A stretch of 32,690 nucleotides of DNA from Candidatus Woesearchaeota archaeon (GTDB lineage Archaea; Nanobdellota; Nanobdellia; Woesearchaeales; GW2011-AR9). The notes under the pieces were generated by a model. The model made no database searches. It was not told the DNA's origin and worked only from the letters and a program-made list of their open reading frames with translations. This document shows positions 12,028-25,403 of the stretch, one piece after another. The DNA lies in NCBI GenBank assembly GCA_013331635.1, contig DUFZ01000026.1, positions 1-32,690 of the forward strand. Reading direction: 5' to 3'. Each line of letters starts with the position of its first letter. The first letter of the stretch is position 1. The position numbers and the translations under genes are program-made.

Positions 12028-12396
12028 TTACTTTTTCACAAATTCGACCTGTGGGAGATTTCTAAAACCTTCATCTCCAGTGAGAAATTTCACCTGTAAA
12101 CGTAAAGCTACCATGTATCCTACTACATCTGGAATGGACAAGCTTTTATGTTTTATTTTGAAAGACATAGCATTTTTAATATCATCAAAAGAAACCTCTG
12201 TCTGAAATGACAAAAATTTAGCTGTAAAATCATCAGCAACTCTTGAATCAACTTCTTTTTTAAGCCCATAGTTTAATTCTGCAAGATTAAAAATAGTAGT
12301 CACAGGAACAACATCTTGATAGGAAGTATATTTAGAATTACCTCTGAAAATCTCAAATAAAGCATAGGTATCAAAGAAAAAAATAAGATTAGACAT
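12028..12396 (-). CDS. vapC: VapC-type PIN-domain toxin
   Basis: 122 residues from the ATG at 12396 (MSNLIFFFDTYALFEI). The longer start at 12411 overlaps the antitoxin more. PIN acidic residues are visible: Asp9 in FFFDTYA, Glu in NLAELNYG, Asp in SIPDVVGYMVAL, and Asp in TGDEGF near the end. VapC proteins are Mg2+-dependent ribonucleases. The gene overlaps the upstream antitoxin by 8 nt, the standard arrangement for a toxin-antitoxin operon. Confidence 0.88.
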   Translation of the reverse strand: MSNLIFFFDTYALFEIFRGNSKYTSYQDVVPVTTIFNLAELNYGLKKEVDSRVADDFTAKFLSFQTEVSFDDIKNAMSFKIKHKSLSIPDVVGYMVALRLQVKFLTGDEGFRNLPQVEFVKK

Positions 12397-12610
12397 CCCA
12401 ACTTTCCTCATCGACTTCTTTTAGAATATCTTCAGTAGAGCGTCTAAATTTAATCTTCCCGAAAACTTCTCTGAGGACATTTGTTTTTTTGACTAAGAAA
12501 ATTTCAACGTTATCGCCTGCTTTAAGATGTTCAGTTTGAACTAGACCCTTGGGGATAACAATTCCAAGCGATCCTCCCCATTCACGTACTTGTGTTTCAA
12601 CTGCTTCCAT
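12389..12610 (-). CDS. vapB: VapB-type AbrB/SpoVT antitoxin
   Basis: 73 residues. The swapped-hairpin AbrB signature VREWGGSLGIVIPKGLV...LKAGDNVEIFLV fills residues 7-40. An acidic tail (ILKEVDEESWDV) likely wraps the toxin. The protein should bind its own promoter and neutralise the PIN toxin that overlaps its end. Two AT-rich TATA candidates lie at 12617-12625 and 12633-12642. Confidence 0.88.
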   Translation of the reverse strand: MEAVETQVREWGGSLGIVIPKGLVQTEHLKAGDNVEIFLVKKTNVLREVFGKIKFRRSTEDILKEVDEESWDV

Positions 12611-14731: not shown

Positions 14732-14962
14732 TCACTTCTTCCCGCTGACCGGCCGTTTGACCGTAATGGGCATGACACCGGCATTAAACTCCAACAAGGC
14801 AATTTCAATGGGATCAAATCGTTTCTGCTGCAATTCTTCAGGTGTCATTTTAACTAAAAAGGGAGCGCCCATGGAAATTTGCAGGGCTCGAGAACCAATC
14901 ATGCGGGCTTTCTCGTACTTGGTATAAATCAAGGTATCCTCAGTAATGGTAGCTGCTTTCAT
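14732..14962 (-). CDS. rpoK: RNA polymerase subunit Rpo6 (RpoK)
   Basis: 76 residues, the archaeal homologue of eukaryotic RPB6 and bacterial omega, which helps assemble RNA polymerase. [25 protein letters not shown] and [22 protein letters not shown] are the two conserved blocks. The ATG overlaps the rrp42 stop by 4 nt (ATGA), so translation is coupled. Rpo6 at the end of the exosome operon differs from the better-known rpl37ae/rpoP arrangement. Confidence 0.93.
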
Positions 14963-15750
14963 CGTAAGGCTTTATTCAAGACCTCCCTTAAAAATTTTGC
15001 CTTTTCTGAGGCGAGATCAACAATTCTTCCAACTTCATCTATCGTTAGAGGTGCAGTTCCGCCTTTTTGCAGTGCAGAAACGGTTTTAGAATCGTCAGTC
15101 GTTACTGTTAATCGTGCATCATAAGCTCGCTCTTCTTCTAAGGTTGGATCAACCAAGAGACTACCATTGATTTTATAGACAGTTACGGGTAATGGTTCTT
15201 TAACGAGTGGCAAGGAAACCTTAGTCTTTTGATGATAATCAATGGCGCCGGTGCTTTCATCAACGACGGGGAAATGAGCTGATTTAAGGGCTGTCAACGC
15301 TGCCAGCCCCGCAGTATCAAAAAGGTTGCCAGCATCATTAATAGTCATAATATCAATGCTGATGAACCAGGCTTTTTCTCCTGGAATAATACAGAGTTTC
15401 TTCATGTCGATGGCTTTGGCTTCGCGAATGCCTCGATCCACCACTCGAGCCAATTCTACCGCCTTAATGCCCGGAGGACCGGTTTCAAATTCGGGGTTGG
15501 ATAAAGGCAATAATTCGGCATTGACCATAATTCCACCTTCGTCAGGTGTATCGTTATAGGGTTTTTCAATGGATAACTTGACTCCAGCAATGACAATGTT
15601 GTCCCCAATGCGAACACGAGCAGACCCTTCTGCTGTCCAGGAAATGCCGGTTTCAATAACAATAGGGGTGCGATACTCGGTTAAAGTTCGGTTATCTAAG
15701 CGTTTTTGCACTGATGCCAATTGTACGATAGTTTCTTTGTTAACAATCAT
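14959..15750 (-). CDS. rrp42: Exosome subunit Rrp42
   Basis: 263 residues, the non-catalytic RNase PH-like partner of Rrp41 in the hexameric exosome ring. [39 protein letters not shown], and the [23 protein letters not shown] motif are typical of Rrp42. Rrp41 ends 3 nt before its start. Length is normal. Confidence 0.95.
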
Positions 15751-15753
15751 GTT

Positions 15754-16455
15754 TTACTCCCGTGAAAAGCGCTCTTTCAAAGCTTTTTTTTGAACTTCAT
15801 AGACCCTCTCAGTGGCAATTTTTGCCATTTCCAGCGCCTTGATGAGATCTTCTTTGGAAATTTCTCCATCCATTTGCAATAAGGTCAGTTCTTTGGTATT
15901 ATGAAGCATCGCCACCGGAATATCGGAAACAATCCCAAGATAGGCTTCTTCATTATAATTCAAATCGGCAACAACGGTTCCGTCCACCTGCCCGACGGCA
16001 ACTGAACTGACCATATCTTTCATGGGGATGCCGGCATCAGCAAGAGCAATGGCAGCAGCTGAAATAGCAGCGCACCTGGTGCCAGCATCCGTCTGTGGTA
16101 AGTCCACAAAGACATCTACCACTGAATTGGGAAAAGCGGACAAGTCCATCACTGGTTCTAAGGAGCTGTTCATGACCATGGAAATTTCCTGCGAACGACG
16201 ATTTCCTCCAGGACGGATTCGTTCTCCTGAACCGGAAAAGGGCATCATGCTATAATGACAGCGCAAAAGACCTTTCTTAGGATTTTGTAAAAATCGTGGG
16301 AACAATTCCCGCGGACCGTACACGGCAGCGTAGCAAACCGTATTTCCAATTTTAAAATAGGCTGAGCCATCAGCATTGGGAATTACCCCTGCTTTGGCTT
16401 CCATGGGACGAAGTTCGTCCACTTTTCGTTCATCTAATCTTTTTTTGTAGACCAT
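15754..16455 (-). CDS. rrp41: Exosome catalytic subunit Rrp41
   Basis: 233 residues. The phosphorolytic 3'-5' exoribonuclease subunit. The N-terminal KKRLDERKVDELRPMEAKAGVIPNADGSAY variant of the RNase PH fold, the phosphate-binding GNRRSQEISMVM region, TDAGTRCAAISAAAIAL, and the catalytic aspartate region DLNYNEEAYLG ... SDIPVAML are all present, so it should be active. It sits between rrp4 (8-nt gap) and rrp42 (3-nt gap). Confidence 0.96.
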   Translation of the reverse strand: MVYKKRLDERKVDELRPMEAKAGVIPNADGSAYFKIGNTVCYAAVYGPRELFPRFLQNPKKGLLRCHYSMMPFSGSGERIRPGGNRRSQEISMVMNSSLEPVMDLSAFPNSVVDVFVDLPQTDAGTRCAAISAAAIALADAGIPMKDMVSSVAVGQVDGTVVADLNYNEEAYLGIVSDIPVAMLHNTKELTLLQMDGEISKEDLIKALEMAKIATERVYEVQKKALKERFSRE

Positions 16456-16463
16456 TTTAATTA

Positions 16464-17150
16464 TTATACCCTTTTATCTTCCAAAAATTTTTGCATTCGC
16501 TCGGTTAAGCCATCCTGGTGAGATTTCTCCTGAATAAGTTTAATTGCCCGTTCAGCCAAATATTCTCCATTGGTAGTACCTTTAATCCATACGTGACCGT
16601 TTTGACCTATGGTAATGTCGCAGCCAGTCTTCTCTTTGATGAGGGAAATCATGCTGCCTTGCTTCCCGATGACCCGAGGCACTTTCTGACTGTTAATATG
16701 AATAATTCTTCCACCAGATATTTTATGCAATCCGGGCTCTTTCATGGTTAAATCAATCAAGTTCTGAGAAGTAACATTGACCAGAATAACCACCACATAA
16801 TCACCTATCGCAATAATTTCGCTTAAATCTTCGTCTTTTTTGATGAAGCGGGTAGTGGCATCTTTGACATTCAGAAAAGCGCTGTAGGCTGTTCCGGTAT
16901 CAACCCGCCAGCCATTTAAGGTAATATCACTGACTTTGCCGATAATTTTGTCCCCTACACGAGGGATATAAGGCCCAGCAAGGGGAGTTATTTTAATAAC
17001 CCTACCAGGAATAGACACTAAACCTAACACTTTAGAGTAAATAGCGCTCTCTTTTCGGTAGGTATTTTCTCCGGGCAGGTAATCCATGCCTTCAGCGAGA
17101 ATTTCGCCAGGGATGACAATGTCCCTTTCTTGTACCAGTACATTACTCAT
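16464..17150 (-). CDS. rrp4: Exosome RNA-binding cap subunit Rrp4
   Basis: 228 residues. N-terminal domain with IVIPGEILAEGMDYLPGENTY, an S1 domain (about 65-140, VGDKIIGKVSDITLNGWRVDTG), and a KH domain (about 145-205) with its GxxG loop in PRVIGKQGSMISLIK. Rrp4 caps the ring and feeds RNA into the channel. It overlaps the end of the SBDS-like ORF by 8 nt, so that ORF is translationally linked to it. Confidence 0.95.
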   Translation of the reverse strand: MSNVLVQERDIVIPGEILAEGMDYLPGENTYRKESAIYSKVLGLVSIPGRVIKITPLAGPYIPRVGDKIIGKVSDITLNGWRVDTGTAYSAFLNVKDATTRFIKKDEDLSEIIAIGDYVVVILVNVTSQNLIDLTMKEPGLHKISGGRIIHINSQKVPRVIGKQGSMISLIKEKTGCDITIGQNGHVWIKGTTNGEYLAERAIKLIQEKSHQDGLTERMQKFLEDKRV

Positions 17151-17358
17151 TTTGTATACGTATTTCCCCGTGCGTCATGGAATTTATCTTTTCTATAAAC
17201 TCAAGATAAAATCCCGCCGGGATCTCCATTTTTATCTTCCAACTTCCATCTGAAAACCACTCCTCTTTTAAAAGCTTACTGTTATTTTTGATAAATTGGG
17301 GATTTTGGGTAGTGATAAACCAGACAATGACAGCCATTTCTCTCTGTTCTATGTGCAA
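17143..17358 (-). CDS. Stand-alone SBDS C-terminal (domain III) protein or remnant
   Basis: 71 residues (64 from the ATG at 17337, which has GAGAG upstream). KEEWFSDGSWKIKMEIPAGFY and THGE match the C-terminal ferredoxin-like domain of archaeal SBDS/Sdo1, whose form I recall as 'EEW..DGSW......P.G.y......l....GE'. SBDS normally has about 230 residues with two more domains before this one, and normally sits between psmA and rrp4. Here domains I and II are absent: only 25 nt separate this ORF from the previous gene. It is either a truncated gene or half of a split SBDS. The reading frame is intact and overlaps rrp4. Confidence 0.75.
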   Translation of the reverse strand: MHIEQREMAVIVWFITTQNPQFIKNNSKLLKEEWFSDGSWKIKMEIPAGFYLEFIEKINSMTHGEIRIQNE

Positions 17359-17383: not shown

Positions 17384-17593
17384 TTAGGCTATTGCTTTTT
17401 CAGCAGCTTCAATAACTCTACGAACGTCACCAGAAAAAACTTGACTGGCACGTAAAATTTCAATAGATACAATGGAGCCATCTTTAGCTATATCAATTAT
17501 TACTCCATTAGGTAGCTCAACACTCTTCCAATAGCCTTCTTTTTTAAGTTGAATATTAAAGATGTCCTCGTCTTTGTCGTACCAGTTTTCCAT
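17384..17593 (-). CDS. DUF2283 protein, probable antitoxin-like partner
   Basis: 69 residues. WYDKDEDIFNIQLKKEGYW ... VELPNGVIIDIAKDGSIVSIEILRASQVF is the DUF2283 pattern (tyrosine-acidic start, 'ivD.d..G.ivgIEIL.aS'). These small proteins are frequently encoded directly after DUF4258-type proteins and are suspected antitoxins. The gene starts 1 nt after the DUF4258-like stop. Biochemical role not established. Confidence 0.8.
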   Translation of the reverse strand: MENWYDKDEDIFNIQLKKEGYWKSVELPNGVIIDIAKDGSIVSIEILRASQVFSGDVRRVIEAAEKAIA

Positions 17594-17594
17594 G

Positions 17595-17828
17595 TTAGTC
17601 CAGCCAGTAAGCCGTGATTATTTTAAAAGTTTTATTTACGTTTCTTTTGTAGATTACTTTGAGTATTCTTCCCGAAGGAGGGATACGACAAATGGCGTTG
17701 GAAGCATCAGGCCAATATTTATCTTTCAATTCATCTGAATTGCTTATGGCATACTCAAACATATCATCCGTTATTTCTGAGCGATACTTTTTTTTCCAAA
17801 GCCAATGTTTTGAATACTCAAACTTCAT
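17595..17828 (-). CDS. DUF4258-like protein, probable toxin-like partner
   Basis: 77 residues. FEYSKHWLWKKKYRSEITDD at the start and the RILKVIYKRNVNKTFKIITAYWL end fit the DUF4258 / RelE-like small nuclease fold (basic His near the start, 'kviTay' near the end). The DUF2283 gene follows after 1 nt, giving a candidate toxin-antitoxin pair. A TATA box (17847-17856) precedes it. It lies where SBDS would be expected to begin. Confidence 0.65.
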   Translation of the reverse strand: MKFEYSKHWLWKKKYRSEITDDMFEYAISNSDELKDKYWPDASNAICRIPPSGRILKVIYKRNVNKTFKIITAYWLD

Positions 17829-17873
17829 TTAGTAGATAGTATTAGCTGATTTATAAATATTTTGTGGTTATTT

Positions 17874-18599
17874 TCACTTATTCTGTTTCCAAATCAGTTC
17901 AAAGAATTTTCGGTAGGACTTAGCCGTCTGCGGTTCTTCGATGAGAAAACCAAATGGCTTATCCAGATAAATTATGATAGCAACCCGATTACCACAGATA
18001 ATAGTTTCAGTCAATTCTTCAAAATCTTTGGAGGTAGTTTTAACAGTTGTCAATGACCGTTTATTGAGTTGATTTGCCCACCACCTAAGTTTGGCATGAA
18101 AAAGCAATTGAGCTTTTATCTTTTTGTGAATTCGTTGACGGTGAAAACTATCCCAGAAAAAATCACCAAATAATTCATGGGCTCGAAGCGGACCGCCATA
18201 AGCATAGTATTCCTTGGAATGAGTATCGAGCATCAGGTTTAATAATTCTTTAACGCCACGAATTCCTTGAAACAAACTTGCCTGTGGTTTTTGGGGAGCG
18301 TTAATTCGTGTAGCTTCCAGTTCTGGAAGAATTTTTTGTAATCGTTCTTTCTTTTCATCTATAAAACTAAGCAAGAGTTTTGGTTCAACAGTCTGATAGT
18401 GATTCACTTTTCCTTCTAAAATAGAGGTAATAAAGCCTTTTTGTGCTAAAGAATGAAAAGCCCGATGAACAACCGCATTCTGTAAGCCAGATTTTTCTAC
18501 CACCTTACCAGCGGTACTGGAGCCGAGCTCTAAGAGGGTTAAGAATACTTTGATTTCGGCGCCGGTAAGACCTAAATCCTCAAGTATGGAAGTATCCAT
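17874..18599 (-). CDS. TrmB-like transcriptional regulator
   Basis: 241 residues. Winged helix at about 5-70 (LGLTGAEIKVFLTLLELG, then NAVVHRAFHSLAQKGFI, TrmB style), a coiled linker with LQKILPELEA, then a C-terminal sensor-like alpha/beta region ending PFGFLIEEPQTAKSYRKFFE. Its ligand is unknown. It diverges from an XRE-like regulator across a palindromic operator (18637-18662). It is part of an island lying inside the exosome superoperon. Confidence 0.8.
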   Translation of the reverse strand: MDTSILEDLGLTGAEIKVFLTLLELGSSTAGKVVEKSGLQNAVVHRAFHSLAQKGFITSILEGKVNHYQTVEPKLLLSFIDEKKERLQKILPELEATRINAPQKPQASLFQGIRGVKELLNLMLDTHSKEYYAYGGPLRAHELFGDFFWDSFHRQRIHKKIKAQLLFHAKLRWWANQLNKRSLTTVKTTSKDFEELTETIICGNRVAIIIYLDKPFGFLIEEPQTAKSYRKFFELIWKQNK

Positions 18600-18636
18600 A
18601 TCTCAATGTTTTTTCTGGTTTATTTAAGATTTTCTA

Positions 18637-18662
18637 TTTATAACCACAATTGTGATTATAAA
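18637..18662. promoter_or_regulatory. Palindromic operator between divergent regulators
   Basis: Two 13-bp arms (18637-18649 and 18650-18662) are inverted copies with one mismatched pair; the core is CACAATTGTG. It lies between the starts of the TrmB-like gene (18599) and the XRE-like gene (18695), next to an AT-rich TATA region at 18661-18676 for the plus-strand gene. Either or both regulators may bind it; which does cannot be read here. Confidence 0.65.
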
Positions 18663-18694
18663 AATTTATATTTAAAATATTTTTCTCCTCTTGA

Positions 18695-19171
18695 ATGGAG
18701 AATAGATATCCTGCCCTTGGACCATACATTCAAAGTAAAATGAAAGAATGTGGTTACAGAAGTTTAAGATCTTTAGCTTTAAAAATGGGATTGACTCCTG
18801 CTGCTCTTTGTAGTTACAATCAAGGTTATCGTTTTCCAAGAGAAAAAAGTATCCAAAAATTAGCTATAGCATTTCGAACAGACCCGCGAGAGATTGAACA
18901 ATTACGGGAGGAAGTTGATGCAAGGCAGAGGAAAAAATATGTTACAGAAAGCGAATTGGAACAATTGGTAGAGTCACGTAAAGTGATAGAATTAGACTCA
19001 ATGGCCAACAAAGTAGCTATCCAGTTACAACCTCTTTATGAAAAAATAGATCTAAAAATTGAACAATTGATAGAAATTACAAAAATGGTAAATTCCCAAT
19101 TGATAGGATATAATACCCTAATAGAGGCACACAATGCACTTATAAATTTTTTTGGAAGAGAAAGTAAATAA
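18695..19171 (+). CDS. XRE-type helix-turn-helix regulator
   Basis: 158 residues. Residues about 10-70 form a Cro/XRE helix-turn-helix: SKMKECGYRSLRSLALKMGL, then TPAALCSYNQGYRFPREKSIQKLAIAF. The remainder is a long helical, possibly coiled-coil region that could mediate dimerisation. It is the only plus-strand gene in this stretch and converges on psmA. TTTATATTTAAAATAT at 18665-18680 is its likely TATA region, with no Shine-Dalgarno. Confidence 0.8.
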   Translation: MENRYPALGPYIQSKMKECGYRSLRSLALKMGLTPAALCSYNQGYRFPREKSIQKLAIAFRTDPREIEQLREEVDARQRKKYVTESELEQLVESRKVIELDSMANKVAIQLQPLYEKIDLKIEQLIEITKMVNSQLIGYNTLIEAHNALINFFGRESK

Positions 19172-19203: not shown

Positions 19204-19929
19204 TCACTTCACTAATTTCTTTAATTCATCATTGCTTAATTTAGTAAACCGGCGTTCTTTGCCATCGACAAAAGCAGCATCCACCCGGTCGAAGTTGAAT
19301 TCGTCTTTCAGAAACTCTTTCATTAAGCTCAATCCTAACCGTAAGCCTTCCTCAACACTCATCCCCGCTTTCCAGCGCTTCTCTAACTGCGGCTCGATTT
19401 CTGTATCACCCATCCCAATGACGGCAGCTCGGCATTGGAAGTACAACCCATAGGGTTCGGTGATGTATAATTTAACATCCCCGTCGTCTTCAACGCCGCC
19501 GACAAGCATGGATACTCCAAAAGGGCGGAGTCCGGCTGACTGGGTGCAGACCTGCTTTAAGTCGCACATTTCTTTGACAATGGAAATAATATCAATTTTA
19601 GTGTCATAGGTTACCGCATGCTGTTGCGCGTGCAGCTGCGCCCGATCAACCAAGACCCGGGCATCGGCGATTAAACCGGCGGCGGTAGCGCCGATATGAT
19701 CATCAATCTTAAACATTTTTTCGATAGCTTCCGGGACGACTAATTTGCTCAAAATCCGCTTGTCGGTAATGAAGACCACACCATCTTTACAGGCGATGCC
19801 CATCGCCGTAGGCCCCTGCTTGACGGTTTTTTTGGCATACTCAACCTGCAAAAGCCTTCCATCGGGAGAAAACATAGTTATAGAACGGTCATATCCCATC
19901 TTATCTATCATCTGTTTATTCTGCTGCAT
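19204..19929 (-). CDS. psmA: Proteasome subunit alpha
   Basis: 241 residues from the ATG at 19929, chosen because GAGGTG (19937-19942) sits 7 nt upstream; a GTG at 19938 lies in that site. The alpha signature YDRSITMFSPDGRLLQVEYA, which forms the gate of the 20S proteasome, and the G-x-T-A-x-G-I core are intact. The ribosome binding site overlaps the stop of the upstream RNase P gene. In many archaea this gene is followed by SBDS and rrp4; here an island intervenes. Confidence 0.97.
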   Translation of the reverse strand: MQQNKQMIDKMGYDRSITMFSPDGRLLQVEYAKKTVKQGPTAMGIACKDGVVFITDKRILSKLVVPEAIEKMFKIDDHIGATAAGLIADARVLVDRAQLHAQQHAVTYDTKIDIISIVKEMCDLKQVCTQSAGLRPFGVSMLVGGVEDDGDVKLYITEPYGLYFQCRAAVIGMGDTEIEPQLEKRWKAGMSVEEGLRLGLSLMKEFLKDEFNFDRVDAAFVDGKERRFTKLSNDELKKLVK

Positions 19930-19939
19930 TTTTAACACC

Positions 19940-24843: not shown

Positions 24844-25185
24844 TTATTCCACAATAATCTGCAGCTTATTTTTATCTATCGGCTCTAAGATCACTTCTTT
24901 TCCTTTTTCAAGAGAGAGAAACTGCACCAATGATTTTGGTATTCGAACATCCAATGCATTTCCCACCTCAGAGACTTTGCTTCGAGCTCGCAATCCCCAT
25001 AATCCTTTGCGTTTAACTTCCATTTCAATTTTATCAGAAGCAGCAGATTCAAACAAAGTTTCACCGCAGTGTTTACACACTAATGCTGCAAAAGTACCAA
25101 TATTCTCCCCTAAAAATACATAGGGGACCTTCTTTTTCTCATACGTTCCCATATTACAACTGGTGCATCTTATTTTTTGTTCCAT
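24844..25185 (-). CDS. Zinc-ribbon plus AbrB antitoxin-like protein
   Basis: 113 residues. An N-terminal MqsA/YgiT-like zinc ribbon carries CTSC (8-11) and CKHC (37-40). Residues about 62-113 form an AbrB/SpoVT DNA-binding hairpin (VSEVGNALDVRIPKSLVQFLSLEKGKEVIL). The same two-domain design occurs in antitoxins. It overlaps the end of the DUF4258 gene by 16 nt. It probably binds the shared promoter. Confidence 0.82.
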   Translation of the reverse strand: MEQKIRCTSCNMGTYEKKKVPYVFLGENIGTFAALVCKHCGETLFESAASDKIEMEVKRKGLWGLRARSKVSEVGNALDVRIPKSLVQFLSLEKGKEVILEPIDKNKLQIIVE

Positions 25186-25403
25186 CCTTTGGGCCTCCCT
25201 AAATGGACTGTAATTACTTTAAATTTATCACCTAGCTTTTCAAACACAACCGTGAAATGCCGGTAGATAGTTATAAAATGATTTCCCTCGAGAAAGCGAG
25301 GACCCCTACTGATAGCCTCGGCAATTTCGACCCGGGAAATCCCATCATCCATGGCTTCATCCTGAGCATGTTTGGTCATTACTACTTCATCCTTTGTTAC
25401 CAT
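25170..25403 (-). CDS. DUF4258 protein, probable toxin
   Basis: 77 residues from the ATG at 25403 (an internal ATG at 25379 is possible). The pattern TKHAQDEAMDDGISRVEIAEAIS, then HFTVVFEKLGDKFKVITVHLG, is the DUF4258 signature (HA...m...gIs, 'kviTv'). These small proteins are associated with zinc-ribbon antitoxins. A TATA box (25437-25450) and a 10-bp palindrome AGTAATTACT (25425-25434) lie upstream, the latter a possible operator. Confidence 0.78.
   Translation of the reverse strand: MVTKDEVVMTKHAQDEAMDDGISRVEIAEAISRGPRFLEGNHFITIYRHFTVVFEKLGDKFKVITVHLGRPKGWNKK

Follow-up and report, generated by a model that had tools for sequence, protein, structure and literature searches.

The window analysed here, a stretch of 32,690 nucleotides from a Candidatus Woesearchaeota archaeon (coordinates given without a contig name refer to it), contains directly before rrp4 a short ORF that resembles only the last third of the gene for the ribosome factor SBDS. 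This locus raises the question of whether the ORF (hereafter called the stub) is one part of a split gene, a functional protein reduced to a single domain, or what is left of a gene that is being lost.

Domain content and predicted fold of the stub

The stub occupies positions 17143-17358 of the reverse strand and encodes 71 aa if translated from the TTG at 17358, or 64 aa if translated from the first ATG at 17337. The original prediction that it encodes SBDS domain III, without domains I and II, is borne out by the profile searches, in which all matches are confined to the end of SBDS: PF20268 (SBDS_C) matches residues 27-68 of the product (39.4 bits, cut-off 27; profile positions 26-66 of 71), and a profile derived from 23 intact SBDS sequences of the family to which the host genome belongs matches the whole ORF (73.3 bits, positions 163-233 of 234). 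TIGR00291 is matched only by the end of its model (163-226 of 231), scoring 28.4 bits where the cut-off is 126.55, and the ORF misses the equivalog threshold of this model. BLAST aligned the full length of the ORF with residues 162-233 of the SBDS protein from the relative G008 (57% identity over all 71 residues), while a sequence search of the PDB reported archaeal SBDS throughout, bar one weak, chance-like match. No match to the FYSH domain SBDS_N (PF01172) was found within the ORF. Judged by these alignments, the predicted product is confirmed to consist solely of domain III, the C-terminal domain of SBDS, and since both the profile and the BLAST alignments cover only the SBDS end, the start of the ORF appears to lie approximately at the boundary between domains II and III.

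The structure prediction proposed for the ORF product agrees with this assignment. AlphaFold2 (36 sequences; the input alignment biases the model towards the domain III fold) returned all six elements of domain III in the order β-α-β-β-α-β, with a mean pLDDT of 74 and the lowest values over residues 1-20 and at the extreme end. The comparison of this model with the crystal structures of SBDS by Foldseek gave TM scores of about 0.8. EF-G/EF-2, whose domain V is structurally related to SBDS domain III, was also among the matches (TM about 0.7-0.78), however with E-values of about 0.01 and weaker and no sequence relationship found. In comparison with archaeal SBDS/SDO1 proteins (TIGR00291; AF0491, mthSBDS, P. 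abyssi aSBDS), the stub shares the domain III signature, the predicted fold and the position between psmA and rrp4, but it lacks domains I (FYSH) and II, and its first β-α unit is devoid of the conserved motif.

One of the options put forward originally was a split SBDS, with the N-terminal part encoded elsewhere. Searches of the whole draft genome (1.32 Mb in 91 contigs, 95.25% complete) speak against it: PF01172 found no match anywhere, PF09377 (domain II) found a single match elsewhere that is at chance level (11.8 bits, E = 0.3), and the family profile of 23 sequences, with E-values up to 10, matched the stub alone. Because domains I and II were not found elsewhere within this 95% of the genome, the split gene is unsupported; likewise, no full-length SBDS and no gene with the FYSH and central domains was detected besides the stub at this level of completeness. 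An N-terminal remnant hidden beside the stub was also considered and rejected, as a six-frame hmmsearch (--max) of the stretch from psmA to rrp4 reported the stub only. The 25 nt upstream of the stub exhibit a weak likeness to SBDS DNA, too short to count.

Position in the exosome superoperon

The conserved gene order in the relatives is OB-Pop5-psmA-SBDS-rrp4-rrp41-rrp42. In the window, the stub is followed on the reverse strand by the genes for the exosome protein Rrp4 (16464-17150; matches to ECR1_N, KH and S1, and synteny in the relatives), Rrp41 (15754-16455; RNase_PH match) and Rrp42 (14959-15750; assigned from its superoperon position and the homologues at the same place in the relatives). 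The usual upstream neighbour of SBDS, psmA (19204-19938, reverse strand; proteasome alpha, PF00227 and PF10584, gene order in the relatives), also lies upstream of the stub, but past a block of four genes (17384-19171). The canonical superoperon position claimed for the stub thus holds on the rrp4 side, where the genes overlap, and not on the psmA side, where the block intervenes.

Nearest to the stub, this block contains a DUF2283 gene (17384-17593, reverse strand; PF10049, 48.9 bits), whose stop codon is separated from the stub by 25 nt, as had been stated. It is preceded by a gene for a DUF4258-like protein (17595-17828, reverse strand), probably a toxin-like partner of the DUF2283 protein; as a putative toxin-antitoxin pair, the DUF2283 member is clear, while the DUF4258 member scores 18.3 bits with PF14076, under the cut-off of 25. 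The remaining two genes encode a TrmB-family regulator (17874-18599, reverse strand; PF01978, 47.8 bits) and, on the opposite strand, an HTH-like regulator (18695-19171, forward strand; HTH_3 below cut-off only). In the relatives that show both psmA and SBDS/rrp4, no TrmB homologue was found in the interval, and no counterpart of the HTH-like regulator was found at this position in the relatives. DUF2283 has a patchy distribution (16 of the 49 family genomes), and the host genome, with 5 copies, represents the family maximum. The psmA-rrp4 joint of the exosome superoperon is insertion-prone, since the relatives carry different, mutually unrelated genes in the psmA-rrp4 or SBDS-rrp4 gap (L068, L075, L097, L074, L090, L078 and others).

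Two other gene pairs in the window may be of a similar kind. At 12028-12610 (reverse strand) a MazE/AbrB-like antitoxin gene overlaps a gene that looks PIN-like by eye, and the two probably form a toxin-antitoxin pair. At 24844-25403 (reverse strand) a YgiT-finger/MazE-like protein (NCBIfam) is accompanied by a small protein that is DUF4258-like by eye and has no NCBIfam match; judged from their sequences, these are possibly also a toxin-antitoxin pair.

The stop codon of the stub and the start codon of rrp4 share an overlap of 8 nt, ATGAGTAA (17143-17150, reverse strand), in accord with the overlap described originally. The identical ATGAGTAA is found in G008 and G004, and G003 has ATGAGTGA, likewise of 8 nt. 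The G008 gene (L086:6777-7475) differs from the stub in encoding all three SBDS domains and in directly following psmA. Because the three genomes exhibit the same arrangement, the overlap is regarded as ancestral and the 3' end of the stub as the ancestral rrp4 start region, and the sharing of the overlap suggests vertical descent of the stub. Horizontal transfer from a G008-like lineage was considered as a source of the stub and set aside, although a tree that forces the stub to group with G009, G002 and G036 is not rejected (p-AU 0.11, 49 columns).

The stub might therefore act only in cis, as a leader that provides rrp4 with a ribosome-binding region and translational coupling while its protein has no function. 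The overlap common to G008, G003 and G004 would agree with such a role, as would GGGGA (17165-17169, reverse strand), a possible Shine-Dalgarno-like site for rrp4 located within the stub, and the presence of a separate GGAG-type site ahead of rrp4 in the SBDS-free relatives. However, the spacing of 14 nt between GGGGA and the downstream rrp4 ATG is long, and about 30 nt would suffice for a leader, yet conservation at the protein level extends over about 150 nt. We regard this role as improbable.

SBDS and aIF6 in the relatives

SBDS_C was detected in 259 of the 353 genomes of the order (142 of 180 among the good genomes). In a tree of four superoperon proteins the host groups with the SBDS-free G014, G016 and G038 (SH-aLRT 90) inside a ten-genome clade (SH-aLRT 99) that includes three more genomes without SBDS, and the presence of SBDS across the family tree requires at least 6 changes. 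The comparison of the locus proposed originally thus shows that the nearest relatives in the tree are SBDS-free and that the intact relatives share the rrp4 overlap; in a scan of the genome contigs no Rrp4 match was closer than 77% identity. At least 15 genomes of the family carry psmA and rrp4 on the same contig without an intervening SBDS, as do 7 genomes outside the family among those retrieved. With all filters switched off, a profile search revealed no remnant in the SBDS-free psmA-rrp4 gaps, and no matches to SBDS_N or SBDS_C were found elsewhere in these genomes. The SBDS-free sisters (G014, G016, G038, G020, G039 and others) are like the host in having no domain I or II, no aIF6 and an otherwise preserved superoperon, but unlike the host, which retains the stub, they have no SBDS remnant between psmA and rrp4.

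No second domain-III-only SBDS was seen among the 259 SBDS_C-positive genomes, and the same architecture was not encountered in more than one lineage. This state is observed in the host alone, since the other short SBDS_C frames that could be inspected are explained by contig ends (G149, G136, G254, G259 and G199) or by frame changes, with the N-terminal part encoded immediately alongside in a different frame (G025 and G304). In the latter two the frame changes within domain III (G025, L078:5200-5969, reverse strand, 178 + 80 aa; G304, C155:6747-7429 (L150), 222 + 71 aa) and represents either real erosion or an assembly error.

A full SBDS or its N-terminal part could also be encoded in other strains or in the ~5% of the genome that the assembly lacks, with the stub being a duplicate, a strain-specific variant or an assembly variant. 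Although a draft of 91 contigs and 95.25% completeness leaves room for this, canonical superoperon genes flank the break on both sides within its 32.7-kb contig, none of the SBDS-positive relatives searched has more than one copy of SBDS, and the stub occupies the native SBDS site, where it retains the ancestral overlap with rrp4. We consider this explanation very unlikely.

The classical partner of SBDS is aIF6. It was found in none of the 49 family genomes, the host included, and in 15 of 47 genomes of the order outside the family; about two thirds of the other sampled families lack it. SBDS is present in 14 of 15 aIF6-positive and in 50 of 81 aIF6-negative genomes (Fisher p = 0.013, or 0.09 outside the family, both uncorrected for relatedness), so that the link between the loss of SBDS and the loss of aIF6 is a trend only. 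In the open-licence literature, to which our search was confined (subscription journals being outside its scope), we found no paper on the loss of SBDS or aIF6 in DPANN archaea.

Conservation, possible function and origin of the stub

Alignment to the family reveals that the stub consists of two unlike parts. The 3' part (17143-17292, reverse strand; 49 codons, IKNNSKLLKEEWFSDGSW...IPAGF...THGE...) is well conserved: it retains 12 of 14 strongly conserved columns, and its mean identity to the family is 50.6%, compared with the 53.8% that the conservation of Rrp4/Rrp41/Rrp42 would predict (z = -0.8). In contrast, the 22 codons on the breakpoint side (17293-17358, reverse strand) align to domain III but appear scrambled, with a mean identity of 18.9% vs 49.5% expected on the same basis (z = -5.6), only 2 of 7 conserved columns kept, and the motif IP..y.GK gone. 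A compensated frameshift was considered as the origin of this segment, by eye and in a DNA alignment with G008, in which the divergence is too great to resolve one.

The second half exhibits no acceleration (end branch 0.28 vs the median of 0.24), its differences from G008 fall 9, 6 and 20 on the three codon positions, which is a coding-type pattern, and the frame is open across all 71 codons. A simulation of neutral drift from the sequences of the relatives gave P = 0.047 at 0.10 and P = 0.005 at 0.15 substitutions per site, and the conservation together with the open frame allows at most about 0.1 neutral substitutions per site since the truncation. This limit suggests that either the truncation would be young relative to the divergence from the sister genomes, or the second half would still be under selection. 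It was originally argued from the intact frame that the ORF is maintained rather than decaying; the frame is indeed open and overlaps rrp4, but the argument is weak because a young stub would look identical.

Maintenance would be expected if the stub encoded a functional miniprotein composed of domain III only. It is known that in Pyrococcus ribosomes the N-terminal domain of aSBDS fills the peptidyl-transferase centre, while the C-terminal domain contacts the P stalk and the sarcin-ricin loop (PMC13324472), and that in Sulfolobus extracts aSBDS competes with aEF-2, while the release of aIF6 needs no aSBDS (PMC8024482). A protein with domain III only could in principle still occupy the P stalk/sarcin-ricin site. 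The conservation of the second half, comparable to that of intact genes, the complete predicted β-α-β-β-α-β fold with its similarity to SBDS structures, and the start of the ORF at a domain boundary all argue for such a protein. However, it would be unique among the SBDS_C-positive genomes, conserved residues are gone from its first β-α unit, the nearest relatives live without any SBDS, and no Shine-Dalgarno-like site was seen before either the TTG or the ATG. With no phylogenetic support and no second case in the 353 genomes, the functional miniprotein retains some plausibility but is unlikely. The more specific version, namely a stand-alone domain III that works at the ribosome (P stalk/sarcin-ricin site) without aIF6 and without the SBDS portion that reaches into the peptidyl-transferase centre, seems slightly less likely still.

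Among the options considered originally, a recent truncation has the best support, given the SBDS-free nearest relatives, the scrambled breakpoint side and the limit of about 0.1 neutral substitutions per site. We propose that the stub is probably an eroding remnant, a halfway stage in the loss of SBDS from a lineage already without aIF6. In such a scenario, aIF6 would have been lost first, and the block with the DUF4258/DUF2283, TrmB and HTH genes would have arrived between psmA and rrp4 in an ancestor of the species. Domains I and II, encoded by the 5' two thirds of SBDS, would have vanished, with the last third staying joined to the overlapping rrp4, and a further small indel or scramble near the breakpoint would have cost domain III its first conserved motif. 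The other ~49 codons may look intact because the event is young, perhaps aided by the need for the rrp4 start region. We infer that the insertion was the cause of the 5' deletion in SBDS, that the stub does not function as SBDS and that the event was recent. The open 71-codon frame, the lack of acceleration, the coding-type differences, the start at the domain boundary and the complete predicted fold run counter to the remnant, and they are just as compatible with a maintained protein.

Ordinary decay is the most likely account of the stub itself; the more interesting part is the repeated loss of SBDS in Woesearchaeota-type archaea without aIF6. If the stub is a remnant, the host genome has been caught halfway in a family that has no aIF6 and has lost SBDS several times. 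Such a family may serve as a natural experiment on which functions of the ribosome become dispensable once aIF6 is gone, and on which part of SBDS goes last. A mirror image of the stub is found in G086 (L117:2347-2892, reverse strand), a genome that carries aIF6: its SBDS protein of 182 aa comprises domains I and II with no domain III, and ends with ...LLPIKRKDKENE just before rrp4.
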